Below, one piece after another: positions 1,235 to 46,819 of a DNA stretch of 48,918 nucleotides. This stretch comes from Candidatus Hodarchaeota archaeon (GTDB lineage: Archaea; Asgardarchaeota; Heimdallarchaeia; Hodarchaeales; Hodarchaeaceae), in NCBI GenBank assembly GCA_016839625.1, contig JAEOTY010000339.1, positions 1 through 48,918 of the forward strand, read 5' to 3'. The notes beneath the pieces are model-generated. The model did no database searches. It was not told the origin of the DNA and saw only the letters and a list, made by a program, of their open reading frames with translations. The translations under genes were made by a program, and so were the position numbers. The stretch's first letter is position 1, and every line of letters begins with the position of its first letter.

Positions 1235-1287
1235 TTACCGATAATTCGGTAATTGAAACCCACTTTACTGATAATTCAGTAATTGAA
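1235..1287. repeat. Two 23-bp repeats, each a covarying hairpin
   Basis: Two 23-bp copies at 1235-1257 and 1265-1287 (30-bp period) differ at only two positions. Each holds a five-base inverted repeat around TAAT: ACCGA-TAAT-TCGGT at 1237-1250 and ACTGA-TAAT-TCAGT at 1267-1280. The two differences lie opposite one another, so C-G pairing in one copy becomes T-A pairing in the other. The second copy overlaps the last codons of the convergent minus-strand gene. The symmetry works on either strand, so this could be a protein-binding site or a bidirectional termination or processing signal. Confidence 0.75.
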
Positions 1288-2014
1288 TTGCTTGTTGATA
1301 CAAATTTATTAAATCGTCGGAGAGTTCCTGTTCTAGAATGAAATTCATTCTATCAAGAGACCTTTGGATTTTTTCGTTATCTCCTGCTTCTAATACACGA
1401 TCAAGTAATTGTATCAGTGTTTTAATCCGTGTTTGAATCAGCCTTTCTTCATCTTCTTCTAATGATGATACTAGATAAGAATCCAAATATTTTGAAAGAT
1501 GATCTCTAATTTTTTCTCCTTCGTTTATAATTTTCAGCTTTCTCTGAAGAATGAGGTCTGTCTCATAAGCTATTTCATTTATTAATGCCTCTTTATGTGT
1601 AATTGGTTCTCCCTGGTAGTTCTCGAAGAATTTCGTAAAAAGAGCTTGAATTTGCCGTAGATCTATCCAAGACATCTCCATAATTACCTGAGGCATTAAA
1701 ATTGAAACTAAATTAATACTAAAGCCACCACGATCTGTTTCGGAAGACTCGTAAAGGACTGTTGAAATCGAGAATAATTCATACTCAGGAAATGGAATAG
1801 TTGCAGGCATCTTCGAATAGGAAATATGATTGGGTCTACTGGAAAAAACAGACATTCCCCTAAGAGAGACACTAAATAATAATTCATCGGAAAGCTCTTT
1901 AGGGGTCCAGGCGCTCGGCATACCACCCCTAATGTCATCAAATTTTGTCCATATAGCACCTATGAGAACTTTATACTTGTTTTTACTTTCTCTTGAAGAT
2001 CTACGGAATGTCAA
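1265..2014 (-). CDS. Longin-like-domain protein of Asgard type (hypothetical)
   Basis: A 249-residue protein without enzyme motifs. Residues about 14-135 show a pattern I associate with archaeal longin-like proteins: a first strand KVLIGAIW, then FDDIRGGMPSAWTP, a segment around ATIPFPEYELFSIS, an RGGF turn leading into the strand SINLVSIL, and a helix. Residues about 140-249 are helical and charged, probably coiled coil. The start is a TTG at 2014, with an in-frame stop 18 bases upstream; a later start would remove the first strand. It is convergent with actin. Longin domains act in small-GTPase and trafficking complexes, and Asgard genomes have many, so a cytoskeleton- or GTPase-linked role is possible but inferred. 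The fold call rests on pattern memory and is tentative. Confidence 0.5.
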   Translation of the reverse strand: MTFRRSSRESKNKYKVLIGAIWTKFDDIRGGMPSAWTPKELSDELLFSVSLRGMSVFSSRPNHISYSKMPATIPFPEYELFSISTVLYESSETDRGGFSINLVSILMPQVIMEMSWIDLRQIQALFTKFFENYQGEPITHKEALINEIAYETDLILQRKLKIINEGEKIRDHLSKYLDSYLVSSLEEDEERLIQTRIKTLIQLLDRVLEAGDNEKIQRSLDRMNFILEQELSDDLINLYQQAIQLLNYQ

Positions 2015-2258: not shown

Positions 2259-2591
2259 TTACTCAGGAGTATTCTTCTTATTAGCAATAAGATCAGCCAC
2301 TAATTTACAGATTTGCAGAATTTTAGGGTCAGCTAATGCATAATAAACCTCATTAGCCTTTCTTCGTGTTATTACTACTCCTTTATCTCTTAAGACACGG
2401 AGATGCTGGGAAATATAAGGTTGTGGTTTGTTTGTCATTAATATGATATCTGAGACATTTTTCTCCTCATCTTTGAGAATTTGAAGAATTTTTAATCTGA
2501 AAGGATGTGTTAACGACTGACACAGATCTGCTTGTCGAGACAATATCTTTTTTTCTTCATCTATTGAGTTTGAGACTTGTTTTGAGGTCAT
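2259..2591 (-). CDS. ArsR-family winged-helix regulator, thiol type (paralogue 1)
   Basis: A 110-residue ArsR/SmtB-type repressor. The recognition region is PQPYISQHLRVLRDKGVV and the wing ends in EVYYALADPKIL. It has only two cysteines: Cys24 in the first helix (LCQSLTHPFR) and Cys95 in the last helix (QICKLVADL). The metal-site cysteine pair of the CadC/ArsR third helix is absent. It aligns without gaps to the regulator at 4524-4853, including both cysteines. In ArsR dimers the first and last helices pack at the dimer interface, so a disulfide or persulfide switch is plausible (inference). A TATA-like ATATATAT lies at 2622-2629 on its promoter side. It sits downstream of the 518-residue gene on the same strand. 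Confidence 0.85.
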   Translation of the reverse strand: MTSKQVSNSIDEEKKILSRQADLCQSLTHPFRLKILQILKDEEKNVSDIILMTNKPQPYISQHLRVLRDKGVVITRRKANEVYYALADPKILQICKLVADLIANKKNTPE

Positions 2592-2668
2592 ATCCTAATC
2601 AGGAGGAATATATTACGATTCATATATATGGGTCTGCGACAGAATAGCAAAATAAACTATGATACTCA

Positions 2669-4225
2669 TTATATTCGATAAACAACGCGAGTTTCTCTTA
2701 ACCATTTATCTACATCACTGCTTGTTGTAAAAAATAAATACAAATAATCATTTAGAATTCCTAAGATCTGATTATATGTCTTATTTACCATTTGTGGAGT
2801 AGGATCAAAACTAAGAGTTTCATTTGAATTATTAAACATTGGTCTGTTTTTTCCACAGAGCAAATCTATTATTTTATTAATGAGCTTAGCTGGTTCACTC
2901 ATTTTAAAATCTGGACTAATGCATAAATCATATGATTGAGCACTTCCAGTATATGCCTGTATAGAGGCGCCCATAAAATTCAATTTATTACCATAAACAA
3001 GTTTCATATAATCTCTAGCGATACGTGAGTCAACTTCACTAATGATAGTTGACCCGTTTTGGTTTAAAGGATAAAAATCATGGGGATGACCTGTTCCAAG
3101 CATTAATTTCATAATAGCTATCTTACTTCCCTCTGGAATTCCTCTCAATTTCCCTTCAATTAGTCTTATATATGGACGATTGTCACCTAGAACTTTAAAG
3201 AAGACTAATAAATCGAATCCTTGGGTAGCCAAATTCCCTGTTCCAATTAAAGCTCCAAATATTAAGCCTTTCAACTTTGAGTTAATAATTTCAAGTTTTA
3301 ATTTTCCTGCATTTAAATCGCTTGTAAAATTCTTCCCAAATTTCTCTGATACTCCAATAATTAAAGGAGTTCCTGAATTTTGTCCAACTATTTTATCATA
3401 AATTGCAGCTGACATTTGTAACAAAGGGGCTTCAAGGAAACTGACACCAGCAATTAGATCTAGTTTCAATTTCTTAAAGAAGTTCCATGTTGTACCTAAA
3501 TTGACATAATAAGAAAATCTCCAATTATATCGCTTTTTAACTTCTTTAGGTGTTAGATATTCGTACATTAGTTTTTGTTTATTATTAACTGTTAATTTTC
3601 CGCTAAAACCGAACTTATCTTTTAATTTTTCAGGTATCTCTATCTCAAATCTCCCAATCCCATCCATACTATTCCAAAAATTCACCATCTCAATTATCAG
3701 TGCTGCTATTTTCGTACCTTCATCTTCAGTGAATTTTATTACGTTATTAGGTTTTATGCTGAAGTTGTTGAGGATAGTTTCTAAAATTAAAATCCCACGA
3801 ATGTCTGGACTCTTTGATTGCTTAACCCAACTATCTGTTTGTAAACATATTTCAATAAAAAGATCAGAACTCATTCCTGGAAAGATTGTTTGGATTTTAT
3901 ATCCATTTTTTCCTCTTTTATCAGAGAAGAGTTTTTTTAATTTTTCTTTAATCCTTTTCTCGTTATTTTCTCCCATAAAGCCATCTACATATAACAATGC
4001 GTCACTAGGATGCTTTTTATAATATATCCACTTTTTTATAATCTCCCATTCTTGTGTATTCATTTCTAGATTAGATATTCTGTTACTATCTAAATTCAAA
4101 CCATTTGAAAAACCTGTGTATTTTCTCCCATTAACTGAGAGATTAAAAATCAGTCTTTTCGCAAAAACAAAGATTTCATCCATGAAAGATTCATTAATTA
4201 AACCAATTCTATCTTTGAATTTCAT
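2669..4225 (-). CDS. Unrecognised 518-residue protein between two ArsR genes
   Basis: I do not recognise this protein. It looks soluble: no signal peptide and no convincing membrane segment. It has many Lys/Glu residues in its N-terminal third and more hydrophobic alpha/beta-like stretches around residues 270-420, for example LKGLIFGALIGTGN and GFDLLVFFKVLG. Near residue 380 it has GTGHPHDFYPLN, whose clustered His and Asp residues could bind metal, but there is no known catalytic signature. It starts at an ATG preceded by GAGAG. It is flanked on the same strand by two paralogous ArsR regulators, so its expression is probably under their control. Its coding capacity is secure because the frame is open for 1.5 kb in AT-rich DNA; its function is unknown. 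Confidence 0.7.
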   Translation of the reverse strand: MKFKDRIGLINESFMDEIFVFAKRLIFNLSVNGRKYTGFSNGLNLDSNRISNLEMNTQEWEIIKKWIYYKKHPSDALLYVDGFMGENNEKRIKEKLKKLFSDKRGKNGYKIQTIFPGMSSDLFIEICLQTDSWVKQSKSPDIRGILILETILNNFSIKPNNVIKFTEDEGTKIAALIIEMVNFWNSMDGIGRFEIEIPEKLKDKFGFSGKLTVNNKQKLMYEYLTPKEVKKRYNWRFSYYVNLGTTWNFFKKLKLDLIAGVSFLEAPLLQMSAAIYDKIVGQNSGTPLIIGVSEKFGKNFTSDLNAGKLKLEIINSKLKGLIFGALIGTGNLATQGFDLLVFFKVLGDNRPYIRLIEGKLRGIPEGSKIAIMKLMLGTGHPHDFYPLNQNGSTIISEVDSRIARDYMKLVYGNKLNFMGASIQAYTGSAQSYDLCISPDFKMSEPAKLINKIIDLLCGKNRPMFNNSNETLSFDPTPQMVNKTYNQILGILNDYLYLFFTTSSDVDKWLRETRVVYRI

Positions 4226-4245
4226 GATATTCTCTCAGTTTTACT

Positions 4246-4269
4246 AAGTCTGAAAGTCTGAAAGTCTGG
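4246..4269. repeat. Three tandem 8-bp repeats upstream of the 518-residue gene
   Basis: Three consecutive copies of AAGTCTGA (the last ends in G) start 21 bases upstream of the minus-strand ATG at 4225. On the coding strand the unit reads TCAGACTT. The position falls in the expected leader or promoter of that gene. It may be a regulator-binding array or simple slippage. Confidence 0.7.
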
Positions 4270-4523
4270 GCTGATGTAAATAGGAGTATTAATTAATTTG
4301 GATCTTAATATACAAACTAAGCAGAAAAGATGAAAAAACCCTTTTTAACCTTCTCAACCTATGATTCCAATTGAAATGTCCTTTATTTACCCTGATCTGT
4401 TCGCTGTAATGTTTTTATTCAAGTTCGCCCTAAGAAAGATAACGAGATTCAGAGACAGTCGAAAAAATCCTTTTCTCAGAGATAGAACAGTCTTACACTT
4501 CGAATCGGATGATTCTGAGATCA

Positions 4524-4853
4524 TTAGGAAGATTTTTCTTTCTGTTTAACAAGATCAGCAATTAGTCTACAGATTTCCAGTATCTTAGGATCAGCTAAAG
4601 AATAATAAACTTCATGTTTTTCTCTTTTACAAGTGACTATACCTTTTTCTCTTAAAACTCGAAGGTGTTGTGAAATAAACGGTTGAGGTCGTTTAGTCTC
4701 CATTTCAATTTCCCCAACTTTTTTTGAGCCATTTTTTAAGATTTTGATTATTTTCAATCTAAATGGATGAGTTAATGATTGACAAAGTTGTGCTTGTTGA
4801 TTTAAACTCTTTTCATCCTCAATAGGTGATTTTGAAGTTGAATTAGCTTTCAT
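4524..4853 (-). CDS. ArsR-family winged-helix regulator, thiol type (paralogue 2)
   Basis: A 109-residue ArsR-type repressor and close paralogue of the one at 2259-2591. The blocks QLCQSLTHPFRLKI, PQPFISQHLRVLREKG and EVYYSLADPKILEIC match it. Cys24 and Cys95 fall at the same positions; it has an extra Cys75. I chose the ATG at 4853 over the upstream ATG at 4910. The sequence before it reads GAGGATAAT-ATG, a good ribosome site, and the resulting length and cysteine numbering then match the paralogue exactly. A minus-strand TATA box lies near 4885-4892. The gene is divergent from a protein disulfide oxidoreductase, which suggests it regulates thiol or redox functions (inference). Confidence 0.87.
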   Translation of the reverse strand: MKANSTSKSPIEDEKSLNQQAQLCQSLTHPFRLKIIKILKNGSKKVGEIEMETKRPQPFISQHLRVLREKGIVTCKREKHEVYYSLADPKILEICRLIADLVKQKEKSS

Positions 4854-4868
4854 ATTATCCTCAATGGA

Positions 4869-4926
4869 AATATTCAATACACAGTATATAAACTCTACGT
4901 TAATATTCAAAAGACGGAATATTTTT
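4869..4926. promoter_or_regulatory. Divergent promoter with repeated AATATTCAA boxes
   Basis: The intergenic region between paralogue 2 and the disulfide oxidoreductase holds AATATTCAA at 4869-4877 and again at 4902-4910, 33 bp apart (about three helical turns), plus AATATTTTT at 4918-4926. The boxes bracket the minus-strand TATA element near 4885-4892. This is the arrangement expected of an operator for the adjacent ArsR protein, but AT-rich chance repeats cannot be excluded. Confidence 0.35.
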
Positions 4927-4973
4927 AAAGAATTTGTAAAAGTGTTAAATCAAGTAATTTTGGAGGATTATAA

Positions 4974-5675
4974 ATGTCCGAAGCAAAAGTTAGAATAGAA
5001 GAGAAAATTTTGAATGACGTCCGTCAAATGTTCGATGGATTGACCTCAGATGTAACGCTCCACATGTTTACAAACAAAAATCATTGTTTATTATGTAATG
5101 AAACACTTGACTTGGCAGAACAAATCGCAAATCAATCAGAGAGAGTAAAGCTGGATCATTGTGAATGTGATATAGATTCTGAAAAAGCACAACAATGGCA
5201 AATTCAAAGACATCCTGCGATAACTATTGAAGGCAAAGGGAAAGGAATGATAAGATTTTTTGGAATCCCATCTGGATATGAATTTGGCAGCTTGATCGAG
5301 AGCATTATCATGGCTGGTACAGACAAAGAGAGCGATCTAGATTCTGAAATCGTTGAAGAAATTCAAAAGATTGATAAGCCTGTTCATCTACAAGTTTTTG
5401 TTACTCCAACTTGTCCCTATTGTCCAAGAGCTGTTTTGAACGCGTTTAAATTTGCAATGTTAAATGAAAACATTACCGCTGACATGATTGAAGCCACGGA
5501 ATTCCAAGATCTATCCATGAAATACATGGTACAAGGAGTTCCGAAAACAGTCATCAATGATGAATGGATTGAAGAAGATGACGACGGTGAAATTCTTCAA
5601 ATTCCCAAATGGAGTGTTGTTGGTGCTGTACCTGAAAATGTTTTATTAAATAAGGTGAAAGAAGCACTCCAATAG
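4974..5675 (+). CDS. Protein disulfide oxidoreductase (tandem thioredoxin fold, PDO family)
   Basis: A 233-residue protein with two thioredoxin-fold halves, as in the archaeal PDO/glutaredoxin-like proteins of about 226 residues. The first half has Cys38-Leu-Leu-Cys41 and a cis-proline loop near RHPAITIEG. The second half has the classic Cys147-Pro-Tyr-Cys150 in TPTCPYCPRA and a cis-proline loop at QGVPKTV. It is expected to form, reduce or shuffle cytoplasmic disulfides. Other cysteines (Cys63 and Cys65) are present in the first half. A strong ribosome site, GGAGG at 4962-4966, sits seven bases before the ATG. It is followed after 70 bases by another thioredoxin-fold gene and is divergent from an ArsR gene, so the locus appears to be a thiol-redox unit. 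Confidence 0.9.
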   Translation: MSEAKVRIEEKILNDVRQMFDGLTSDVTLHMFTNKNHCLLCNETLDLAEQIANQSERVKLDHCECDIDSEKAQQWQIQRHPAITIEGKGKGMIRFFGIPSGYEFGSLIESIIMAGTDKESDLDSEIVEEIQKIDKPVHLQVFVTPTCPYCPRAVLNAFKFAMLNENITADMIEATEFQDLSMKYMVQGVPKTVINDEWIEEDDDGEILQIPKWSVVGAVPENVLLNKVKEALQ

Positions 5676-5745
5676 TTCCAACAAATATAACACAATTTGA
5701 AAACAGAATTACTTGAGAGAATCGGAACCTGGAGATCTGAAAATT

Positions 5746-6330
5746 ATGCTAGAACGATTAACCGAGGAGTTTTATCAAACAGGGATGAATTTTGAAGAAT
5801 TTGTCAACACAGGGAACGAAGACGAACAGAAACGAATGTTACTATATTTTAATCGATCTGAAAAAGAGTTTCATCCAGAAGAATTTCATATTGATGTAGC
5901 ATATCCAATCAATCTTCTGGTTGCAGCAACTACTTGGTGCTGGGATTCTCAAACAAATGTTCCTATTCTGGCCCGAATAGCAGAACATAGTCCAAATATC
6001 AACCTGAAAATCTTCAATAAAGACCAATATCCCTTTCTAATTGATCGTATCAATGGAGGCGAAAAAATCCCTCAAGTTCTGATATTTTCAAAAGATTTCT
6101 TTTTTCTCGCTCGATGGGTTGAACGACCGAGGTTAACTTATCGCTTATATGCTGAAGTTCATCAGGAAATTGGCTGGGATGAGAGTACAAAAGATGAATT
6201 TGTGAAAGAGTACCGGAAAAGCTTCCTAAAAAACCATAAAGAGCTAGAAAACGCTTTAATCCACGAAATCAGGACTATCTTAGAGCGAACAGATGCTATT
6301 CAATCGTCTACTTCTCGTTTTTTTCAATAA
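5746..6330 (+). CDS. Thioredoxin-fold protein with a single active-site cysteine (Thioredoxin_9-like)
   Basis: A 194-residue protein of the thioredoxin superfamily. The strand PINLLVAATTWCWDSQ leads into a helix NVPILARIAE. A later loop GGEKIPQVLIF supplies the cis-proline, and FLARWVERP follows. This order matches the PF14595-type family, whose motif is usually WCGDS/A; here the motif is WCWDSQ, with only one cysteine. A helical C-terminal extension (EVHQEIGWDE onward) is also typical of that family. The ATG at 5746 was chosen because GGAG lies 11 bases upstream; the longer TTG start at 5713 has no ribosome site. Role: probably a monothiol redox or adaptor protein paired with the upstream disulfide oxidoreductase. 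Confidence 0.75.
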   Translation: MLERLTEEFYQTGMNFEEFVNTGNEDEQKRMLLYFNRSEKEFHPEEFHIDVAYPINLLVAATTWCWDSQTNVPILARIAEHSPNINLKIFNKDQYPFLIDRINGGEKIPQVLIFSKDFFFLARWVERPRLTYRLYAEVHQEIGWDESTKDEFVKEYRKSFLKNHKELENALIHEIRTILERTDAIQSSTSRFFQ

Positions 6331-6539: not shown

Positions 6540-9164
6540 GTGAGATGCTTTAGTTTGAGGAAACGGGTTATTGAATGGGATTTTCCTTTAGGTGAGATAT
6601 CGAAAGCATCTATCCATGAGAAGAGTGTCAGGCATGGACACCCAAGCACTTTACATCTGTGGTGGGCCAGACGGCCATTAGCAGCTTCTCGAGCGACCAC
6701 ATTTGCAGCTTTAATTGATCTACCTTCAAGTTCTAAGGGGAAAGAAGAGTTATATGGATTGATCAGAGATATTGCGCCTTGGAATACTGTGAAATCCAAT
6801 TCAAATCCTGTAATTCATAAAAGTCAGCAGTTTATTAAAAAGCAGTGGCATAATGAACCACCAAAAATAATAGATCCTTTTTCGGGGGGAGGATCAATTC
6901 CTCTCGAAGCTTTAAGACTTGGTTGTGAAACCTATGCAAGTGACTTAAACCCAATTGCAGTTATCATCGGGAAAGCAACCCTAGAATGGCCACAAAAGGC
7001 TGCTAGTACTCAACTAGCAACAATTGTCGAAAAATGGTCAAAAAAAATTCGGAAGGAGGTTAAAAAAGAGATTGGCCAATTTTATCCTCATGATTCAGGA
7101 GAGGAAGGAGGTATTCCCATTGGATATCTATGGGCTAGAACAATTATTTGTCCAAATCCAGCCTGTTCTGCAGAAATTCCTTTAATTAAACATTTCTGGT
7201 TAGCTAAAACTAAAAGACGCTCAATCGCCTATAAACCAATAATAAACAGAGATACAAAAACAATTTCTTTTCAAATTCAGATAGATAACAACATTGATTT
7301 TGACCCCTCCCAAGGAACAATTTCAAGGGCTAACGCCAGATGTTTAATTTGTAACCAAGTGATAAAAGCAATTAAAATACGAGAACTTGCACAACAGGGA
7401 AAAATGCTTCATAAAATGACTATAGTGATCCTACGATTTCCCAACAGGAAAAATAAGCACTATCGTATAGCAAATGAGAATGATCTTCACACCTACACTC
7501 AAGCAACAAAATTTCTTGTTCAAAAGCTTTCAAACTATGGGGATATGGAACCTCTTTTACCAGATGAAGAATTGCCACCAATGGGAACTTTGGGGTTTGG
7601 TGTTCGTCAATATGGGATGTCTAAGTGGTGTGATTTGTTTAATCCTCGTCAGCAATTAGCACTCGTCACCTTTCTCGAGCGAATCAAAGCAAATTACAAA
7701 GCAATTGCTAAAGAGCATCAAGAATTAGTTGATACAACCCCTCACCCCATTAAACTATCTAGTATAATTATGGCTTATTTAGCAATAATCCTAGGAAGGT
7801 TGGCAGATAAGAATGCTAATTTAGTGGTTTACAACGCTTATGGGGAGAAAATTGAGCATGTCTTTGGCAGAACAGCTCTCTCAATGGCGTGGGATTATGC
7901 AGAATTAAATGTTTTCTCTGGTGCCAATGGAGATTGGTTACGGCAAACCGACTGGGTTATTCGCTTTTTGGATACAAATTCTTGGGAAATTTCTACGGAA
8001 TCATCAGTTCAACAGGCATCTGCCACAAGTTTACCTTTTCCTAACGAGTTTTTTGATGCTGTTTTAACTGATCCACCATATTACGACAATGTTCCTTATT
8101 CTGATCTCTCAGATTTCTTTTATGTTTGGTTCAAAAAAGCAATTGGTGATCTATTTCCTGAGCTATTTGCAACTCCACTCACTCCCAAGGAAGAAGAGAT
8201 TGTTGCTAATAAGGGAAGACAAAAGAATCCTAAGGAGTTTTTTGAAGAAAATATTCGCAATTCCTTTCAAGAGATGTATAGAGTATTGAAATCCCAAGGC
8301 ATTGCGATCATAGTGTATGCCCACAAGTCCTCAGCAGGTTGGGAGACAATGTTGGAGGCATTAACTAACGCTGGTTTCGTGGTTACAGCTTCATGGCCCA
8401 TTCACACTGAAATGAAAACGCGTCTTCGAGCAAGAACATCAGCAGCACTCGCTTCATCTATCTATCTTGTGTGCAGAAAACATCCACAACATGAGATCGG
8501 TTATTTTAAAGAGATCCAACATGAAATAGAAAGTCAAATCCATGAACAATTACATCGCTTCTGGAATGAGGGGATTCGTGGTGGGGATTTTTTCATATCA
8601 GCAATTGGGCCTGCTATGGAGATACTAAGTCAATACCGGCAAATAATGCGTTACTCTGGTGATATAGTCTCGTTTCGAGATCAATTAAACCTGATCCGTT
8701 CGATTTCAACGAACTTCCTTGTAAAAACCATTTTACAGAACAAAGGAACCATTATGATTGATAGAGTGTCTCAATTTTATCTGGCATTTAGATGGACTTT
8801 TCAAGATAATACTGTTGACTTTGGGGAAGCTCAGAAACTTAGTCAAGCGTGTGGAGTCGAGCTAGACCAAACTTTGAGAATTGGACTTATTGAGAAAAAA
8901 GGATCTAAGATCACAGTCCTAGACGCTTCAAATCGGCGTAATATGAATACAGAAGACCCTTACTTAGTTAATGTTATGCACCAATCGTTAATCGCTTGGA
9001 AGGAAGGAGATGAAAACCAACTAAAAGAAATAGTCCTTTCTTCTGACATTTTAGAGAAAGATGATTTTTTAAAATTCTGTCAAGCGGTAGCTGAATGCCT
9101 CCCTCGAAGAAATGCTGAAAAACAGCTACTTGAAGGATTTCTGATTTCGAAGTATTGCACATAG
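6540..9164 (+). CDS. DUF1156-containing DNA methylase with zinc ribbon (COG1743)
   Basis: An 874-residue predicted SAM-dependent adenine-specific DNA methyltransferase. Residues about 10-65 are the DUF1156 domain, including SVRHGHPSTLHLWWARRPL. The SAM-binding motif DPFSGGGS starts at residue 112 and is followed by SDLNP. A zinc ribbon is formed by Cys204/Cys209 and Cys268/Cys271. The catalytic motif DPPYYDN starts at residue 511. The C-terminal part (about 650-874) is helical and unassigned. The start is a GTG at 6540 with no ribosome site; later starts would cut into DUF1156. In bacteria and archaea this family often travels with DUF499, DUF3780 and helicase genes in defence islands, but none are beside it here, so this copy is an orphan. 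Its substrate could be host or foreign DNA. Confidence 0.88.
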   Translation: MRCFSLRKRVIEWDFPLGEISKASIHEKSVRHGHPSTLHLWWARRPLAASRATTFAALIDLPSSSKGKEELYGLIRDIAPWNTVKSNSNPVIHKSQQFIKKQWHNEPPKIIDPFSGGGSIPLEALRLGCETYASDLNPIAVIIGKATLEWPQKAASTQLATIVEKWSKKIRKEVKKEIGQFYPHDSGEEGGIPIGYLWARTIICPNPACSAEIPLIKHFWLAKTKRRSIAYKPIINRDTKTISFQIQIDNNIDFDPSQGTISRANARCLICNQVIKAIKIRELAQQGKMLHKMTIVILRFPNRKNKHYRIANENDLHTYTQATKFLVQKLSNYGDMEPLLPDEELPPMGTLGFGVRQYGMSKWCDLFNPRQQLALVTFLERIKANYKAIAKEHQELVDTTPHPIKLSSIIMAYLAIILGRLADKNANLVVYNAYGEKIEHVFGRTALSMAWDYAELNVFSGANGDWLRQTDWVIRFLDTNSWEISTESSVQQASATSLPFPNEFFDAVLTDPPYYDNVPYSDLSDFFYVWFKKAIGDLFPELFATPLTPKEEEIVANKGRQKNPKEFFEENIRNSFQEMYRVLKSQGIAIIVYAHKSSAGWETMLEALTNAGFVVTASWPIHTEMKTRLRARTSAALASSIYLVCRKHPQHEIGYFKEIQHEIESQIHEQLHRFWNEGIRGGDFFISAIGPAMEILSQYRQIMRYSGDIVSFRDQLNLIRSISTNFLVKTILQNKGTIMIDRVSQFYLAFRWTFQDNTVDFGEAQKLSQACGVELDQTLRIGLIEKKGSKITVLDASNRRNMNTEDPYLVNVMHQSLIAWKEGDENQLKEIVLSSDILEKDDFLKFCQAVAECLPRRNAEKQLLEGFLISKYCT

Positions 9165-23501: not shown

Positions 23502-26500
23502 CTATTCTTCATCCTCTGAAAACTGGATTAGATTACTTGGGAAATTAAGTTGAAATTCATTTCCTGCTGTGTCTTGAGGTTGGATTGTTAGTGATCCTTC
23601 ATAATGTTGCATTATGACTGATACTAGTGAAAGTCCAGTAAAATGACCTTGATATTCCCATCTTTCTGTAATCTTCTTAGAGAGCCTTAAACTAATTTCT
23701 TCTGATATGGGTTGAGAACATTGGTCAAATATCGTCACACGGAAAAACGGAGGAACAAAAGAACCTTTGATGACAGTTGAAGTTGAAATGTCTAATTTTT
23801 TCTCACAGGAATCTATGATAAATAAGAAAAGTTCCAAAAAGACGTTCTCAAGGTATTTATCTGCATATATCATCACGCTAAGACTTTCTTGGTCAGCGTT
23901 TGCGTTAAGGGAAAACGGTTTCATATCCAAAATGGCTTTGTTAACAACATCTTGCAGATTAAATCTTTTTTGGACTTGATCGAAAGGCGATTGAAGAACT
24001 TCAAATATCTTATTTACGGTATCAATTGTTTTTGATGAGCTAGAAGCAATGTCTATTATTCTACTTACATTTTTCTCCATTTCTTGAGTTGATTCGGAAT
24101 TTAATGATATTAATTCGACATTATTGATGATTTTTTGGAGATCATTATTTACAAAATGACTTAACATTGCATGATAACGCTCTTCTTCAAGTTTAACAAG
24201 TCGTAATGACTCTTCAGCCTTCTTCCTAGCAGTAATGTCCACAAAAGCTGCCTGGATTGCAGGTTTCCCCATGTATTCAATTCGACTGGAATGTGCTTCC
24301 AACCAGATTATCAACCCGTCTTTTCTTATAAAACGAACTTCTGGTTGAGGTTGAAAATCTCGGTTTGCTAAACGATCTCTATAGCTTTGGAAATATCCCT
24401 CTCTATCATCAGGATGAGCCAAGTTGTATATTTGTTCAGGTTGAAAATTTAAAATTTCCTCGATAGAATATCCAAGAATTTCAGCAATTACAGGGTTAGT
24501 AAAAGCAATCTGAGGGGGATCCCCTTGAAAAATGAGTAAACCTTGGAGTGAATAATTAACTAAAGTCCGATACTTTTCTTCGCTTTCCCTTATAGCTTCT
24601 TCTGCTTTGTATCTTTCTGTAATGTCACGTGCAATACCTAACATACCAGCTATTTTACCATCCCTGATTTGAGGTGAACCCTTTACCTCGAATATTAAAT
24701 AATCACCCGATTTAGTCAGAAGTCGTAATTCGGGTGCTGGAGGTTGTTCACCTTCTAAAATGCGTTCAAATCCCTCTATTATTAGAGAAAGATCCTCAGG
24801 GTGCACTATTAATGAAAAAGGTTGGTTAATCCACTCATCACGTTCCCAACCTGTGATTCTTTCGAAAGAGGTGTTCACTGAAGCAATAATACCCTCTGGA
24901 GATATTGTAAATATTAAATCTCGAGCATTCTCTATAAGACTTCGATAACGTTCCTCTGATTCACGAAGGTTTTTCTCCCCCCGTTTCTGTTCAGTAATGT
25001 CTGTGAATACAGAAAGTACTCCTTTGAATTCTCCTCTTTTAGATAAAATAGGAGTTGCTGTAACGAGAACAGGAATCTTTCTTCCATCATTCGATTGAGC
25101 AACGGATTCATAGGAGCTAACAATTCCCTTGGGACGTTTTGCTGTTTCAGCTTCAACTTTCTCACGCTCCTCAGCTGCCACCACATAGCTCCAGTGTTTT
25201 CCTAATAACTCATCTTCAGGAAAACCAATCATTTCCACTGTTCTAGGGTTTACAAAGGTAATATTTCCCTCTTCATCCTCCAAAACTACTCCCTCATGCA
25301 TCTTCTCTATAAGCATTTGATATTTCTCTTTTGACTCCTGCAGTGCTTCCTTTGTTTTCTTACGTTCTGATATGTCCCTTACTATGCTGATGAAAGCAGT
25401 AGGATCGCCTTTTTCATCAGTAATTAATGAGGCATTCAATTCTGCAGGAAAAACGGTTCCGTCCACCTTGAGCAACCTATATTCTAAGTTCAATTTTCTC
25501 CCCTGTTGTAATGTTTTTTGAGCATTCTCAATAGCCTTAACACGGTCTTCTGGTAAGATAAAACCCATTGCATTCCTTCCGATTAAATCTGCCGCACTTT
25601 TCACACCGTTCAAATTTACAGCTTGGTGATTCACTGCAATTATGTTGAATTCAAGATCAGTCAAAATGATAGCATCAGGAGAAAGTTCGATTAACCTACG
25701 ATACCTTTCTTCGCTTTTTTGCAATGCTTCTTTTGCCTTTGTTTCCGATGTAATATCAGATAATATCCCAAAGCTCCCAATAGTTTCTCCCTGTTCATCT
25801 AACAATGCCGTTCCAGCGACTCGAGTGATTATTGAAGTTCCATCCTTCCTGATCCATTTTAATTCGTAGGTAGAAGTGGGAATTTTTTTAATGAATCGTT
25901 CATTTATTATATCTTCAAAAAATGGAAGTGAATCAGAGTGGAGGAAATCTCTCCCGTCTTTTTCAAGTATTTCAGCTTCACTATACCCTAACATGTTTTC
26001 TAACGCAGAGTTTACAAAAACTGTCTTATTTTTGCGATCTGTTACCCAGACTCCTTCACTCATTGTTGTAATTAGGGTTCGATATCTCTCTTCACTTTCT
26101 CGAAGCGCTCGTTCAAAGCGTTTTCGCTCTGTAATTTCTCGAACGATTACTAGATCAGCTGGTTCCTCCTGAAAGGTAATTATCCCGGCATTTAACTCAA
26201 CCTCCAGTGACGTACCATCTTTCTTGATCAATATTGTTTCATAAATCGGTGGTACAGGTTGGCCAGCTATCCGTAGTTCGTATCGCTCAATAACTATCGA
26301 AACATGGTCAGGGTGAATATAATTCATAATGGGAGTATCTATAATTTCTTCTGTAGTATATCCAATCATAGTTACAAGACTTGGATTGACATATTTTATT
26401 AATGAATTTTGGACTATCGTTATTCCATCACTTGCTCGTTCAACTAGATTTCGATACTTCTCCTCTGACTCTCTTAATGACTTCTCAACCAGGACTTGTT

Positions 26501-26939
26501 CAGTGATATCATTTCCAAAAACTGCTAATCGAACCACTTTTCCATACACATCAAGGACAGGATGGATATAATTGTTAAAAACCATTCCCTCTCGCTCATC
26601 GTTGAAACGTAGAGGTTCTCCTGAACGAATAACTTTATTAATTTGCATCTTTCGGAAATTAGCTACTTCAGGTGAGAATAAATCAAAAACACAACAGCCA
26701 ATAAGTTCATCCACATTTTTACCTATTCTTTGGGTTGCTACCTCATTGATGGCAAGGATGGTACCTTCTTTATCTAAAAGTAGTGATGACTCTGGAGAAA
26801 CTTTTAGAAGTGATTCAATCAATTCTTCAGATTCTCGTAGTCTGGTTTCTGTTGCCTTGACCTCAGTAATACTTTTTTTTATCACTTCTTTTACATCTAC
26901 AGTAATATCTTGCCGTTTTAGCAGTGATTCCAATAGCAT
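23502..26939 (-). CDS. Seven-PAS sensor protein with degenerate histidine-kinase module (paralogue A)
   Basis: An 1145-residue soluble protein. Seven PAS/PAC units of about 125 residues run from about residue 35 to 915, each opening with a RESEEKYR-like linker helix and most closing with DITER-like PAC ends. The C-terminal 220 residues resemble a histidine kinase. The helix EEERYHAMLSHFVNNDLQKI puts a candidate phosphoacceptor at His928, in an HxxxNDLxxI context like archaeal kinases. The ATP-binding part is eroded: the Mg-binding Asn of the N-box is Phe in VFLELFLFIIDSC, the DxGxG box reads FDQCSQP, and only part of the last glycine box is kept (GHFTGLSL). It may bind ATP poorly or act as a scaffold. 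No receiver-domain partner is adjacent. No membrane segment is seen. Confidence 0.88.
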   Translation of the reverse strand: MLLESLLKRQDITVDVKEVIKKSITEVKATETRLRESEELIESLLKVSPESSLLLDKEGTILAINEVATQRIGKNVDELIGCCVFDLFSPEVANFRKMQINKVIRSGEPLRFNDEREGMVFNNYIHPVLDVYGKVVRLAVFGNDITEQVLVEKSLRESEEKYRNLVERASDGITIVQNSLIKYVNPSLVTMIGYTTEEIIDTPIMNYIHPDHVSIVIERYELRIAGQPVPPIYETILIKKDGTSLEVELNAGIITFQEEPADLVIVREITERKRFERALRESEERYRTLITTMSEGVWVTDRKNKTVFVNSALENMLGYSEAEILEKDGRDFLHSDSLPFFEDIINERFIKKIPTSTYELKWIRKDGTSIITRVAGTALLDEQGETIGSFGILSDITSETKAKEALQKSEERYRRLIELSPDAIILTDLEFNIIAVNHQAVNLNGVKSAADLIGRNAMGFILPEDRVKAIENAQKTLQQGRKLNLEYRLLKVDGTVFPAELNASLITDEKGDPTAFISIVRDISERKKTKEALQESKEKYQMLIEKMHEGVVLEDEEGNITFVNPRTVEMIGFPEDELLGKHWSYVVAAEEREKVEAETAKRPKGIVSSYESVAQSNDGRKIPVLVTATPILSKRGEFKGVLSVFTDITEQKRGEKNLRESEERYRSLIENARDLIFTISPEGIIASVNTSFERITGWERDEWINQPFSLIVHPEDLSLIIEGFERILEGEQPPAPELRLLTKSGDYLIFEVKGSPQIRDGKIAGMLGIARDITERYKAEEAIRESEEKYRTLVNYSLQGLLIFQGDPPQIAFTNPVIAEILGYSIEEILNFQPEQIYNLAHPDDREGYFQSYRDRLANRDFQPQPEVRFIRKDGLIIWLEAHSSRIEYMGKPAIQAAFVDITARKKAEESLRLVKLEEERYHAMLSHFVNNDLQKIINNVELISLNSESTQEMEKNVSRIIDIASSSSKTIDTVNKIFEVLQSPFDQVQKRFNLQDVVNKAILDMKPFSLNANADQESLSVMIYADKYLENVFLELFLFIIDSCEKKLDISTSTVIKGSFVPPFFRVTIFDQCSQPISEEISLRLSKKITERWEYQGHFTGLSLVSVIMQHYEGSLTIQPQDTAGNEFQLNFPSNLIQFSEDEE

Positions 26940-27136: not shown

Positions 27137-30100
27137 TTAATCTTCTTTAAGTTCTCCTAAAGCCTCTATTAAATTATGAGGGAAAAGAAGTTTGAACTCG
27201 TTTCCTTTATGAGCAGATGGATGGATTTCAAGTGAGCCACCATAGTATTGTATTATTACTGAGGCTAGTGCTAAACCAATATTATGTCCAATAACTTCCC
27301 ACTCATCTGTTATTTTCCCCGAAAGTTTTGAAATCAACTCTTGGGATAGTGGTTTAGAACAACAATCACTAACAATAACGCAGAAAGAGGAGGGAAGGAA
27401 AGAACCCCGAATATCAATACTCGTCTTGATATTGACAACATCAGAGCTCAAAATAAAAAAGAAAATTTCACTAAAAACATCCTTAAGATGTGCATCACTC
27501 AAGATCATCACCTCCAGATTCTCCTTATCAAATTTGATGAATTGAGAAAAAGCTGATGATACCGAGATTGCTTCATTAATAACATCGAGAAGATTAGTGC
27601 TGTCTTTTGGTGGAATAAAAGGAGATTGAAGAACCTCATAGATTTTGTTTACTCTATCAATGGTTTTTGACGAGCCAGAAGCAACGCTAACGATCTTAGT
27701 TAATATCCTATCATCCAATTTTAATTCTGATTCATACATTAATGATAATAATTCCAGATTGTTGATTATTTTTTGCATGTCATTATTTATGAAATGACTA
27801 AGCATGGCATGATAGCGTTCTTCCTCAAGTTTTACTTGTCGTAGTGCCTGTTCCGCTTGTTTACGTTCGGTAATATCCCGAACGATGCCCTGAATTACCG
27901 TTTTCCCTCCAACAGTGAAAAGACTTGAGGAAACATCAGCAGGAAAGACTTCCCCATTCTTTTTCATAAAATTAATTTCAAAATTTGTAAATCCGTCTTT
28001 AGCAATTTTCTCAAAGGCGTTTCTCGAGGCTTCACTCATTTCAGGAGGATGAAGAACGGGGATTTTAATTGACAAGATCTCTGGTTTTGTGTATTCAAAC
28101 AGTTTTAACGTTTTTTCATTAACATCTATGATGTTTCCATCTAGATCGTGCAGAAAAATTGCATCATTCGATTGATGGAACAGATTACTATATTTCTCCT
28201 CACTTTGCTGCAACTTCTCCTCAATACGTTTACGCCTAGTGATATCGGTTGATAAAACTAGAACAGATTGGAACTCTCCAGTATTAGAGAAAATAGGTGT
28301 TGCTGAAACTATAACTGGAATATTAGTCCCATCTTTTGCTAAAAGACTGCTTTCATACCTGCTACTGATGCCTCTAGATCGTTTTTCTGTCTCAATACGA
28401 GATTCCTCAATATATTTTTCTGGAACTATAAAACTCCAGTGTTTTCCTAATAGTTCTTCTTCTATATAGTCTAAGATTTCTAATGTTTTTGGATTAGCAT
28501 ACCTAATGATTCCTTCTGGATCTTCTAGAGTTACTCCCTCTTCTAATTTATTAACTAATGTTTCGTATTTTTCTCTTTCTTCTCCCAATGCTGCTTCCAT
28601 TTCTTTTCGTTCAGTAATATCACGAACAATCCCGCGGAACCCGTTGGGTTCACCATCAGGGTCTACTATCAGGGAAACAGACACCTCATTGAAAAATCTA
28701 CTCCCGTCTTTTCTGATAGTTTCAAAATCAAACAATTTTGTTGATTCCCCTGTTCGAAAAACCGTATTATAAGTCTGGTATACCTTCTTGGCAGTCTTTT
28801 CATTCGTGTACTGATGGTAATTCATCCCCATTAATTCATCTTTAGAATAACCAAGAAATTTACTTATCGAATCATTAAAGAAGGTAAAATTCCCAACAAG
28901 ATCCACTTCATAATAACCCTCTTCAATAGTTTCCAAAATTGTCCTATATTTCTCCTCACTTTCTCGTAAAGCACGCTCTGCTTGCTGACGTTCAGTTGTA
29001 TCACGAATTATCCCACGGAACCCAGTGGGTTCACCATCAGAATTAGTAATTAAAGAAATAGACGCTTCGTTGATCCGCTTAGATCCATCTTTTCGATTAA
29101 TTTCGTAAGCAATGATTCTTGTGGGCTCTCCTGTTTGATAAACCTTATTAAAGTTGTCATACACCATCTTGGCGGTCTCTTCATCTGTATACTCTCGGTT
29201 ATTTATACCCATCATCTCATCTTTAGAATAACCATGAATTCTGCACATAGCATCATTGAAGAAGGTTAAATTCCCAGCTAAATCGACCTCATAATAACCA
29301 TCTTCGATATTCTCGAGAATTGTACGATACCGTGTTTCGCTTTCTCGGAGAGCTCGTTCAACTTGTATTCGCTCCGTAATATCGCGGATAATCCCACGAA
29401 ATCCAGTACGTTCACCTTTAGAATCATATATTAGTGATGCTGATGCTTCAACAATTCTCTTCGTTCCATTTTTCCTCACAGCCTCCCAATTAAACGCTTT
29501 AATTGGTTTACCCGTCCGATAGACAGCATTAAAGGTTTGAAACACAAGAGGAGCTAATTTCTCATTTGTATACTTTTTATAATTCATCCCCAAAATTTCT
29601 TCTCTTGGATACCCAAAAATTTTACAAAGAGAATCATTGAATAACGTAAAATTTCCAGCTAAATCGACCTCATAATATCCATCCTCGATATTCTCGAGAA
29701 TTGTACGATATCGTGTTTCACTTTCCCGTATTGCTTGTATTATTTGCTTTCTCTCACTAATATCCCTTATAATCGCCAGGTCAGCCAGTTTGCCCTGATG
29801 AGTGATGACACCAGCATTGACTTCAACTTCTAAGATCCTACCATCTTTCAAAATTATTTTCGTTTCATATATTGAAGGAACACTTTGTCCAGCCATACGT
29901 TGTTCAAAATGATTAATAACTTTTTTACGAACCTCAGGATGAATATAGTTTGTAATTGGAGTGTTATATAGCTCCTTGGCGGAATAACCAGTTATTTCTG
30001 TTACCATTGGATTGGAATACTTTATCAATGAATCCCGAACTATAGCAATGCCATCGTTCGCTCGTTCTACTAAATTGCGATATTTCTCTTCTGATTCACG

Positions 30101-30589
30101 CAAATCAATCATCGATTGTCTGTATTCAGTAATATTTCTAACAAAAGTCATGACACGGGTAACCTTTCCCTCATCGAAAATCGGGATCTTGCGTGTTTCA
30201 GTGATAAATTCTTTATCCCCGATTGTAGTTCTTTCCTCGGTGACTAGAGATTCTCCAGAACTGAATACTTGATTGTATTCATCGATAATCCTATCTGATA
30301 GGAAGGGGAATACTTCAGAAATTCTCTGACCAAGTACATCTTCTTTGAGGCCCAGCTCTTTGTTCCACTGTTTGAAAGCTGTGTTGAAAAGAATAAAACG
30401 CAAGTCAGAACCAACAACATGTATCGCATCGCCCATAGAATCAAGAGTTTGACGTAAGGGCAGTTCTATATCATGTTGGGTTTCCTTGATTTGTTTTTGT
30501 TCAATTAAATAGCTTTTGATAGCTTGTTTCACGTCTAAAGGAACATCAGGTCTCTCAAGTATAGTTTCCAAGTGCATTTCTACCAACAA
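27137..30589 (-). CDS. Seven-PAS sensor protein with degenerate histidine-kinase module (paralogue B)
   Basis: An 1150-residue soluble paralogue of the previous gene, 197 bases upstream of it on the same strand. Seven PAS/PAC units span residues about 45-920; units 3, 4 and 5 are near-copies of each other (ENIEDGYYEVDLAGN and similar openings). The C-terminal module has MLSHFINNDMQKI with candidate His932. The N-box Asn is again Phe (VFSEIFFFIL), the DxGxG box is SDCCSKP, and the last glycine box is GHNIGLAL. Unlike most PAS pairs, both proteins also share the opening ETILERPDVPLDVKQAI. The two probably arose by duplication and then swapped PAS units. Ligands of the PAS domains cannot be told from sequence. 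Confidence 0.88.
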   Translation of the reverse strand: MLVEMHLETILERPDVPLDVKQAIKSYLIEQKQIKETQHDIELPLRQTLDSMGDAIHVVGSDLRFILFNTAFKQWNKELGLKEDVLGQRISEVFPFLSDRIIDEYNQVFSSGESLVTEERTTIGDKEFITETRKIPIFDEGKVTRVMTFVRNITEYRQSMIDLRESEEKYRNLVERANDGIAIVRDSLIKYSNPMVTEITGYSAKELYNTPITNYIHPEVRKKVINHFEQRMAGQSVPSIYETKIILKDGRILEVEVNAGVITHQGKLADLAIIRDISERKQIIQAIRESETRYRTILENIEDGYYEVDLAGNFTLFNDSLCKIFGYPREEILGMNYKKYTNEKLAPLVFQTFNAVYRTGKPIKAFNWEAVRKNGTKRIVEASASLIYDSKGERTGFRGIIRDITERIQVERALRESETRYRTILENIEDGYYEVDLAGNLTFFNDAMCRIHGYSKDEMMGINNREYTDEETAKMVYDNFNKVYQTGEPTRIIAYEINRKDGSKRINEASISLITNSDGEPTGFRGIIRDTTERQQAERALRESEEKYRTILETIEEGYYEVDLVGNFTFFNDSISKFLGYSKDELMGMNYHQYTNEKTAKKVYQTYNTVFRTGESTKLFDFETIRKDGSRFFNEVSVSLIVDPDGEPNGFRGIVRDITERKEMEAALGEEREKYETLVNKLEEGVTLEDPEGIIRYANPKTLEILDYIEEELLGKHWSFIVPEKYIEESRIETEKRSRGISSRYESSLLAKDGTNIPVIVSATPIFSNTGEFQSVLVLSTDITRRKRIEEKLQQSEEKYSNLFHQSNDAIFLHDLDGNIIDVNEKTLKLFEYTKPEILSIKIPVLHPPEMSEASRNAFEKIAKDGFTNFEINFMKKNGEVFPADVSSSLFTVGGKTVIQGIVRDITERKQAEQALRQVKLEEERYHAMLSHFINNDMQKIINNLELLSLMYESELKLDDRILTKIVSVASGSSKTIDRVNKIYEVLQSPFIPPKDSTNLLDVINEAISVSSAFSQFIKFDKENLEVMILSDAHLKDVFSEIFFFILSSDVVNIKTSIDIRGSFLPSSFCVIVSDCCSKPLSQELISKLSGKITDEWEVIGHNIGLALASVIIQYYGGSLEIHPSAHKGNEFKLLFPHNLIEALGELKED
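28600..29737 (-). repeat. Three tandem copies of a 381-bp PAS unit inside paralogue B
   Basis: PAS units 3-5 (residues about 285-663) repeat with a 127-codon period. At DNA level the block TCTCGAGAATTGTACGATA occurs at 29311 and again at 29692, exactly 381 bases apart; the third copy near 28930 has diverged. This indicates recent in-frame duplication or gene conversion. Short-read assembly could collapse or expand such units. Confidence 0.75.
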
Positions 30590-39703: not shown

Positions 39704-40090
39704 TTAATGTCTCGAAAATGTATCAAGAATATTTGATTTTTTTGACTTTAAAATAGTCCATTTCCCTTTACGATCTCGAGATATTAGTTCAGCGTCTTCT
39801 AAGATAGTTAAATGATGGGAAACTGTCGCTTGAGCAAGTTCTGTTATGAATTCAAGCTCACATGGACAGGAAGCTCCATTATTTATTGAAATTAAGATAT
39901 CAAGCCTAGTTGGATGATCCAAGGCTTTCACTAATCTTTTAAAATTCTTAAACTCTTCTTTTTCTTTTGATATTGAGATATTTTCTTTAATTTGTTTCAA
40001 TTCTTGAATTCTTGATGGAACTGATTTCCATTTGACTAATTTTAAATCAAGCAATTCTGTGAGTTTTCTTTCCAGTTCAGAATCTCCCAT
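39704..40090 (-). CDS. arsR: ArsR-family regulator with CPC motif, divergent from arsenite efflux gene
   Basis: A 128-residue winged-helix repressor. The helix-turn-helix region is FITELAQATVSHHLTILEDAELI, preceded by KALDHPTRLDILISI. Cys75-Pro-Cys77 lies at the start of the third helix, the place where As(III)-sensing ArsR proteins hold their cysteine pair (ELCVC in E. coli). An N-terminal 45-residue helical extension is unusual. It is divergent from an ACR3 exporter with two palindromes between them, so arsenite-responsive control of both genes is likely. Confidence 0.85.
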   Translation of the reverse strand: MGDSELERKLTELLDLKLVKWKSVPSRIQELKQIKENISISKEKEEFKNFKRLVKALDHPTRLDILISINNGASCPCELEFITELAQATVSHHLTILEDAELISRDRKGKWTILKSKKSNILDTFSRH

Positions 40091-40339: not shown

Positions 40340-41398
40340 ATGACTCAAGCAGTAACTGTCCCTGATCATGTTTCAGAGGTTCTTGATAAGGAAATCAGTT
40401 TTTTCGAGAAATACCTAGCTCTTTGGGTCGTATTATGTATGGCTCTTGGTATAATTCTATCACAGATTGTTCCCGATGTAAGTCAAACCATTGATTCCTG
40501 GCAAATTTCTGGAATTTCAATACCCATTGGGATATGTCTTTTCTTGATGATGTATCCTGCAATGTTGAATTTGAAAGCTTCAGAGATGAAGAAACTCACT
40601 CGACAACCAAAACCGATATTTTTAACGCTATTTTCAAATTGGTTGATTGCTCCAGTAATTGGGGCCATTTTAGCTAATATTTTCCTTAAAGGAAACGAAC
40701 AATTAATAATTGCTATAATTTTACTTAGTTCTAGTCCTTGTACAGCCATGGTACTAGTTTGGGGCTCAATGGCAAAAGGAAATCAGGAACAAAATGTAAT
40801 AACAACTAGTTTGAATACTGTAACAATAATGTTCCTATATGTACCTGTCGTTGTCTTATTGACTGGTCTTCAAAATATCACAATTGACCGTGTTCTTTTG
40901 GCAATTTCTGTCATTATTTTTATTGGGATTCCACTTTTACTTGGAATAATCTCTAAAAGAATCATTGTAAACACAAAAGGAGAAGAATGGTTTAACAATA
41001 CATATAGACCACTTATCGGGAAAATCGCTATTATTGCTTTATTGAGTACATTAATTGTTCTATTTTCTTTAAACGGTGAGGTATTACTTACCAATCCAAT
41101 GGAATTAATAAAAGTATCTATACCTCTCTTACTTGGATTTGCAATAGTGGTTGGATTTAATATCTTGATGACAAAACTTACCAGTTTAAAATATCGTGAA
41201 GCCGTAATCACTGTTATTATTGGTTCATCGAGTCATTTTGAGATAGCTATTGCGACAGCGATTGCAATGTTTGGTGTTGGTTCCATTGCAGCGTTAGGTA
41301 CAACTATGGGCCTTTTCTGGGAAGTACCTATTATGTTAGGATTAGTTTATCTTGCCAAATTTCTTAATTCACGTGGTTTTTGGGCCTCAGGATCATAA
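40340..41398 (+). CDS. acr3: ACR3-type arsenite efflux permease
   Basis: A 352-residue membrane protein with ten hydrophobic segments (BART superfamily). Cys134 in SSSPCTAMVLVW is the conserved ACR3 cysteine required for arsenite export, and SHFEIAIATAIAMFGVGS with WEVPIMLGLVYL matches the C-terminal ACR3 signature. Bile-acid symporter relatives lack the PCTAMV motif. It exports As(III), possibly Sb(III). It is controlled by the divergent arsR. No arsenate reductase gene lies nearby. Confidence 0.93.
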   Translation: MTQAVTVPDHVSEVLDKEISFFEKYLALWVVLCMALGIILSQIVPDVSQTIDSWQISGISIPIGICLFLMMYPAMLNLKASEMKKLTRQPKPIFLTLFSNWLIAPVIGAILANIFLKGNEQLIIAIILLSSSPCTAMVLVWGSMAKGNQEQNVITTSLNTVTIMFLYVPVVVLLTGLQNITIDRVLLAISVIIFIGIPLLLGIISKRIIVNTKGEEWFNNTYRPLIGKIAIIALLSTLIVLFSLNGEVLLTNPMELIKVSIPLLLGFAIVVGFNILMTKLTSLKYREAVITVIIGSSSHFEIAIATAIAMFGVGSIAALGTTMGLFWEVPIMLGLVYLAKFLNSRGFWASGS

Positions 41399-46462: not shown

Positions 46463-46819
46463 CTAAGCTGTGGGATGTTCTCTAAGATGTTCTAAAGCAT
46501 CAGCGATAATCGGTTCTAAGTGCTCAATTTCGAGTGAATAATAGTTTTCTTTCCCATCACGGCGATATTTGACAAAATTCCCCTCTCTAAGTTCCTTCAA
46601 TTGATGAGAGACAGCTGAAGGGGATAATTCTAAGATTTCACTAAGATCACACACACAAAGTTCAGTCTCAAATAGGGCTAGAAGAATTTTAATCCTTGTT
46701 TCTCCAGAAATTAGTTTAAAAAACTTTGTCAATTGGTTTGGATTAGATTCATTGATCTTTTTACGTGCAATTTCTATCTGTTGAGGATGGATTTCGATCG
46801 TTTTACAAGGTTCCGCCAT
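46463..46819 (-). CDS. CadC/SmtB-like metal-responsive ArsR repressor
   Basis: A 118-residue winged-helix repressor. ELCVCDL supplies Cys55 and Cys57 in the third helix, and Cys5 near the N-terminus matches the extra ligand of CadC. The last helix has His100, His111 and Glu114 (His-x10-His-x2-Glu), close to the zinc site of SmtB/CzrA. So both the Cd/Pb-type and the Zn-type sites may be present. It heads an operon with the P1B ATPase and presumably represses it until Zn, Cd or Pb binds. Palindromes lie in its promoter. Confidence 0.92.
   Translation of the reverse strand: MAEPCKTIEIHPQQIEIARKKINESNPNQLTKFFKLISGETRIKILLALFETELCVCDLSEILELSPSAVSHQLKELREGNFVKYRRDGKENYYSLEIEHLEPIIADALEHLREHPTA

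Follow-up and report, generated by a model that had tools for sequence, protein, structure and literature searches.

Near the start of a 48,918-nucleotide stretch of Candidatus Hodarchaeota DNA (contig JAEOTY010000339.1 of assembly GCA_016839625.1; hereafter the window), genes for two small ArsR-type regulators lie beside a gene for a protein disulfide oxidoreductase (PDO) and one for a Thioredoxin_9-type monothiol protein (Trx9), with the gene of a 518-residue orphan protein between the two regulators (Table 1). The genome that holds the window (G000, in which it is contig C287) amounts to 4.83 Mb in 494 contigs, is 83% complete, and was compared with 11 relatives of the same genus (G041-G051). 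A preliminary description made from the letters alone had placed five open reading frames (ORFs) at this locus, all of which are present at or within the positions it gave, and had the regulators standing divergent from two thioredoxin-fold genes, an arrangement that we confirmed for ArsR-B relative to PDO-Trx9. Based on the data presented below, the core of the locus is probably a divergent, autoregulated thiol-redox switch, ArsR/PDO-Trx9, with a segment carrying ArsR-B and the orphan gene inserted in G000.

Table 1. Features of the ArsR/PDO-Trx9 locus, in window positions
Feature	Position	Strand	Description
ArsR-A	2259-2591	-	110 aa; C24 and C95 the only cysteines; HTH_5 E 2e-13
Orphan protein	2669-4225	-	518 aa; no family assigned; outside the conserved core
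ArsR-B	4524-4853	-	109 aa from ATG (128 aa from an upstream TTG); HTH_5 E 1e-12
PDO	4974-5675	+	233 aa; CLLC and CPYC, plus C63/C65; TIGR02187
Trx9 (Thioredoxin_9-type monothiol protein)	5713-6330	+	single Cys (WCWDSQ); PF14595
Candidate operator	4902-4923		AATATTC-AAAAGACG-GAATATT, perfect 7-bp arms; about 50 bp 5' of the PDO start codon
TATA-like element of the PDO promoter	4920-4929	+	ATTTTTAAAG in G000, ATTTATAAA in most relatives; overlaps or abuts the right operator half
p249	1265-2014	-	249 aa; conserved but assigned to no family; 55-76% identical to its counterparts in nine relatives (in one a contig-end fragment)

Conservation of the core among relatives

When the window's proteins were mapped onto the relatives, the gene order across the genus ran from actin to p249 (-), ArsR (-), PDO (+) and Trx9 (+), usually followed by a DUF1156 methyltransferase. 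The divergent pair of ArsR and PDO-Trx9 was kept in every relative carrying this ArsR (9/9). The ArsR and PDO of G041 lie on two contig ends that have about 120 identical intergenic bases in common; in G048 no orthologous ArsR was found, and a gap of 100 N lies directly 5' of PDO. ArsR genes of this type occur once per relative, and twice in G000 only. The proposed check on neighbour conservation thus came out in part: ArsR and PDO-Trx9 stay together, while the second ArsR and the 518-residue protein are found only in G000.

The five genes also do not travel together across Asgard genomes, a point that had been put forward for checking. Outside the genus, the nearest PDO loci (19 found by tblastn, with neighbours examined at seven) were without an ArsR of this type, and at position 24 the related Asgard ArsRs examined have F, L or some other residue, never Cys. 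When GTDB was scanned with the profile of the ArsR, nine archaeal loci were recovered, eight of them from Candidatus Hodarchaeota/Heimdallarchaeota and one from Candidatus Hodarchaeum mangrovi; in the same scan the signature CQSLTHPF was confined to this group and was absent from the two bacterial matches.

The two target proteins are readily assigned. PDO scored 244 bits against TIGR02187 (cut-off 185) and has two CxxC motifs, CLLC and CPYC, both invariant across 11 genomes, which identifies it as a protein disulfide oxidoreductase. Trx9 matched PF14595 at 83.6 bits (cut-off 25; E 1.4e-23), and its single cysteine is also invariant. Between the two active sites of PDO lies an additional CxC (HCECD, residues 63 and 65; window 5160-5168), likewise invariant in 11/11 genomes of the genus. 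In another Asgard family (f28), a TrxR-like gene (MYDLVVIGSGVTGYGAAMYAAR) follows PDO convergently (2472-3413 in locus L044 and 2226-3152 in L046), an arrangement that suggests a PDO-TrxR pair.

Several further observations concern the neighbours of the core. The p249 gene, absent from the preliminary description, lies 3' of ArsR in the whole genus, shares its strand and is possibly co-transcribed with it. The DUF1156 DNA methyltransferase that follows PDO-Trx9 in most relatives lies in the window at 6540-9164 (+) and was matched by PADLOC to HmaB (E 4e-147); no Hma partner genes were recognised beside it. In G044 alone, about 2 kb separates Trx9 from PDO (L071, 6967-9036), another lineage-specific insert.

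The regulator, its cysteines and the candidate operator

Both regulators belong to the ArsR/SmtB superfamily by their HTH_5 scores (50.2 and 48.0 bits; cut-off 22), and both exceed the cut-off of HTH_metalloreg, the NCBIfam metalloregulator subfamily (75 and 71 bits against 55). Their scores against PF01978 (TrmB), 24.0 and 26.6 bits for a cut-off of 25.6, are far below those for HTH_5, and the helix α1 cysteine is present. The best PDB matches of the ArsR profile were BigR (1.4e-16), then PagR and SqrR (SqrR 3e-15). AlphaFold modelling on the alignment of 11 ArsR sequences (pLDDT 86) revealed a single wHTH domain, an α1-α5 winged helix with helices at residues 7-26, 30-38, 46-53, 57-69 and 90-106, and the structural matches of this model were SmtB, CzrA, BigR and SqrR (Z 12-15). 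Against the BigR/SqrR equivalog NF040642, both fell below the cut-off (52.3 and 55.0 bits against 155). TsoR gave the best equivalog hint, also below its cut-off; no relevant TsoR literature was found.

The model places C24 near the end of α1 and C95 early in α5, bearing out the earlier claim that both regulators have cysteines at identical positions in the first and last helix. Conservation among orthologues, proposed as a check, held as well: the two residues are invariant in all 11 aligned sequences of the genus and are the sole cysteines in 10 of them, with ArsR-B having an extra C75 that the preliminary description omitted. The known metal-site cysteine pairs are absent, as had also been claimed. 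ArsR-A and ArsR-B have no CVC in α3, and the SmtB ligands D104/H106/H117/E120 map onto D88/K90/L101/N104 (offset from HMMER alignments), so there is no canonical metal site; the only other invariant potential ligands are H29 and H63, both typical ArsR residues, and there is no third conserved cysteine. The sensing cysteines of SqrR and BigR lie elsewhere in the fold, as the preliminary description had it, in α2 and in α5 or its C-terminal extension (PMC8960804); in our alignment C41 of SqrR falls at position 37 and its α5 cysteine about eight residues past C95.

In the otherwise poorly conserved spacer between ArsR and PDO, the intergenic alignment revealed a conserved block, AATATTCAA, followed after a short gap by (C/G)AATATTTATAAA, which adjoins the TATA box and in every genome lies 40-53 bp 5' of the PDO start codon. 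As a dyad the block reads AATATTC-N8-(G/C)AATATT; 8/11 intergenic sequences match this pattern, against a shuffle mean of 0.0005, and the remaining three (G051, G048 and G041) have a diverged form in the same place. Exact ATTC-N8-GAAT occurs in G000 and G050, whereas most relatives have CAAT as the right half. For RcSqrR, ATTC-N8-GAAT has been deduced as the sequence recognised, and the YgaV footprint contains one like it (PMC9774250). Because the site is of the SqrR type and the closest PDB profile matches of the regulator are BigR, PagR and SqrR, the palindrome is likely the binding site of this ArsR. Despite this common operator type, the regulator is no BigR/SqrR equivalog as judged from cut-off or cysteine position.

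Throughout the G000 genome, 11 palindrome sites were found at one mismatch or fewer, three of them perfect. A wide regulon was considered and rejected, as besides this locus and a few intergenic sites they sit within unrelated genes; with no evident regulon formed by the other sites, the circuit looks local. A scan of the first 12 kb of the window against Rfam gave no match.

The private segment in G000

The gene for the second ArsR and that for the 518-residue protein occur in G000 and in none of the other 11 genomes of the genus, and the 518-residue protein was found in none of the 391 genomes searched beyond G000. It had no match in Pfam, NCBIfam, PADLOC, phages or plasmids and only weak ones in PHROGs (E >0.05); its best PDB sequence hit, at E 0.39, was no match, and none was obtained in viral_contigs or genome_contigs, two scans that find close relatives only. 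A single-sequence AlphaFold model was unusable (pLDDT 32). The 518-codon ORF is nevertheless not a product of chance, given a log10 p of about -21 for its base composition. Its gene (GC 0.304, GC1 0.37) and that of ArsR-B are the most AT-rich of those examined (GC 0.30; GC3 0.24 and 0.16, against 0.26-0.36 in the other tested window genes).

The ArsR tree placed ArsR-A and ArsR-B too weakly, with most inner branches open, and the question of duplication or import of ArsR-B was therefore judged by pairwise identity and promoter similarity. ArsR-A is 72% identical to the ArsR of G050, whereas ArsR-B is 62% identical to that of G051, 61% to that of G050 and 57% to ArsR-A. The 5' flank of ArsR-A aligns with that of the G050 ArsR as far as a TATA-like stretch. 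The G000 sequences that align with G050 also include the PDO leader and operator. Beyond the operator, the ArsR-B promoter aligns best with G051, in AACGTAGA(G/A)TTTATATAC. These similarities point to ArsR-A as the likely orthologue of the relatives' single ArsR, and to a segment with ArsR-B and the 518-residue gene having probably been added between ArsR-A and the operator. A search around the insert revealed no terminal repeats.

The idea of all five genes as one conserved system was rejected, as the insert is private to G000. Until shown otherwise, we regard the orphan as an unrelated-looking private gene with nothing linking it to thiol chemistry. Of the redox- or persulfide-sensing unit with an effector that the preliminary description had proposed, what survives is probably a thiol-responsive ArsR controlling PDO-Trx9; for the 518-residue protein as the effector we found no evidence.

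Elsewhere in the window are two more ArsR-type genes, apparently of the ordinary metal type; by eye, one is divergent from an arsenite-permease-like gene and the other lies beside a heavy-metal P-type ATPase (relevant genes at 39704-40090 (-), 40340-41398 (+), 44338-46449 (-) and 46463-46819 (-)). Two adjacent multi-PAS proteins of 1145 and 1150 aa (23502-26939 and 27137-30589, -) also appear by eye to be paralogous sensors.

A candidate thiol-redox circuit and its alternatives

In ArsR proteins generally, helices α1 and α5 form the dimer interface. In the circuit that we propose, an ArsR dimer of a BigR/SqrR-like branch would bind AATATTC-N8-(G/C)AATATT in the shared promoter region and, as the right arm runs into the PDO TATA box, would occlude the BRE/TATA of PDO-Trx9 and block TBP/TFB; from the position of the site, it probably represses its own gene as well. 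Oxidation of the C24/C95 dithiol to a disulfide or polysulfide bridge would then release the DNA and induce PDO-Trx9, and PDO, fed by a TrxR-like reductase, may re-reduce the ArsR and close the loop, by analogy with SurR-Pdo. G000 holds several TrxR-like candidates. In this genome the segment with ArsR-B and the orphan, the latter a presumed passenger, would have entered between the ancestral ArsR-A and the operator, so that ArsR-B is now the operator-proximal regulator.

The closest precedent is SurR of the Thermococcales, a redox-active ArsR-type regulator and thiol switch divergent from the adjacent pdo with regulator sites in the shared promoter region, which represses pdo without S0 and is reduced by Pdo in vitro (PMC12162507; further precedent in PMC7278568). 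Our ArsR likewise adjoins and diverges from PDO, with a putative site in the shared promoter region. In contrast to SurR, which has two wHTH domains in about 219 residues, a CxxC in the N-terminal wHTH (24/27 in T. barophilus) and GTTn3AAC-type sites, the ArsR is a single domain of 110 aa with C24/C95 in α1/α5 and an ATTC-N8-GAAT-type site, and a Thioredoxin_9 gene stands behind PDO. Since the circuit layout is the same, yet domain number and CxxC differ and the canonical metal ligands are absent, the regulator, although distinct from SurR, probably acts in the manner of SurR-Pdo. The sulfane-sulfur-responsive ArsRs BigR, SqrR, YgaV and HlyU include its nearest solved relatives by profile and share with it the operator type (PMC9774250) and two cysteines per subunit, but the α2 and α5/C-terminal cysteines of BigR/SqrR contrast with α1 and early α5 here, and BigR/SqrR control sulfur-metabolism genes whereas the target here is PDO.

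Two further systems share parts of this design. RexT of Nostoc is an ArsR-SmtB repressor with a thiol switch; it governs a thioredoxin gene (TrxA2), whose product in turn reduces it (PMC8960804). In these respects it resembles the circuit proposed here, and it differs in being cyanobacterial and in using a vicinal C40-C41 disulfide in α3. The TrmB-family proteins OxsR, Sto12a and MM_1094 (arCOG02242) have conserved cysteines in antiparallel α1 and/or α5 dimer-interface helices, with an intersubunit disulfide at C24 in OxsR (PMC9426492). Like the ArsR described here, they are single archaeal wHTH domains with α1/α5 cysteines, although OxsR belongs to another family, shows stronger DNA binding during oxidant stress and is both activator and repressor. 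The claim of a new thiol-redox locus is therefore kept for the cysteine geometry, which is new for an ArsR, and given up for the architecture, which SurR-pdo already has (PMC12162507), and for helix-1/helix-5 cysteines as such, which have been described (PMC9426492).

Several points weigh against a thiol switch or some part of it. The conservation of C24/C95 spans one genus, where about one ArsR column in three is invariant; it thus supports function without proving it and is not decisive. The right operator half is CAATATT in most relatives, making the dyad imperfect, and no TrxR-like match in G000 reached the TrxR family cut-off (the best scoring 300 bits against 343). Nor is the oxidant sensed readable from sequence, so that sulfane sulfur is not distinguishable as the signal from H2O2, an electrophile or a metal(loid). 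If the cysteines were structural or neutral, the operator could be real and the ArsR answer another cue or simply autoregulate; the confinement of their invariance to one genus and the occurrence of PDO elsewhere in Asgard archaea without the regulator fit this explanation, but we consider it rather unlikely, because C24 and C95 are the only cysteines conserved, persist in all copies, even the diverged ArsR-B, are not matched by a Cys at position 24 in the related Asgard ArsRs examined, and stand over thiol-redox target genes.

Thiolate sites have evolved at many places in ArsR proteins, and with both regulators above the HTH_metalloreg cut-off, C24/C95, with or without other ligands, might instead bind a thiophilic metal or metalloid, making the ArsR a non-canonical metalloregulator and PDO-Trx9 a metal-stress response. 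The missing α3 and α5 ligands, the lack of a conserved third Cys/His ligand other than H29 and H63, the thiol oxidoreductases as targets and a conserved neighbourhood without a metal transporter make this unlikely. We regard as highly improbable the original idea that both ArsRs and the 518-residue protein form a single redox unit with a new effector. Their genes do share one strand, with 77 nt from the 518-residue stop to the ArsR-A start, and the long ORF is intact (chance about 1e-21), but the absence of the segment from the relatives, the 298-nt spacer between ArsR-B and the orphan gene, its composition unlike its neighbours, the failure to see an ATTC-N8-GAAT palindrome 5' of it, and the presence in its product of only three cysteines and no CxxC pair all argue otherwise.

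We therefore describe ArsR/PDO-Trx9 as a candidate thiol-redox switch whose design is known but whose lineage and, for an ArsR, cysteine geometry are new. The fuller proposition is more tentative, and we put it forward as possible rather than probable: that C24/C95 is a thiol switch new to the ArsR superfamily, bridging the dimer-interface helices and both controlling and reset by the divergent PDO, and hence that Asgard archaea have a second archaeal ArsR-PDO circuit, independent of SurR, with a BigR/SqrR-type regulator and operator. Among the archaeal transcription factors with a thiol switch in the literature consulted (SurR, MsvR and OxsR), there is none from Asgard archaea. If the proposition is true, the locus would offer a small and testable Asgard thiol switch, in which a regulator of 110 residues acts through a 22-bp site on two genes and of which nine natural regulator/site variants can be compared; a SqrR-type DNA site would be in use in archaea; and the SurR-Pdo feedback design would have had two or more origins, differing in cysteine geometry and operator.

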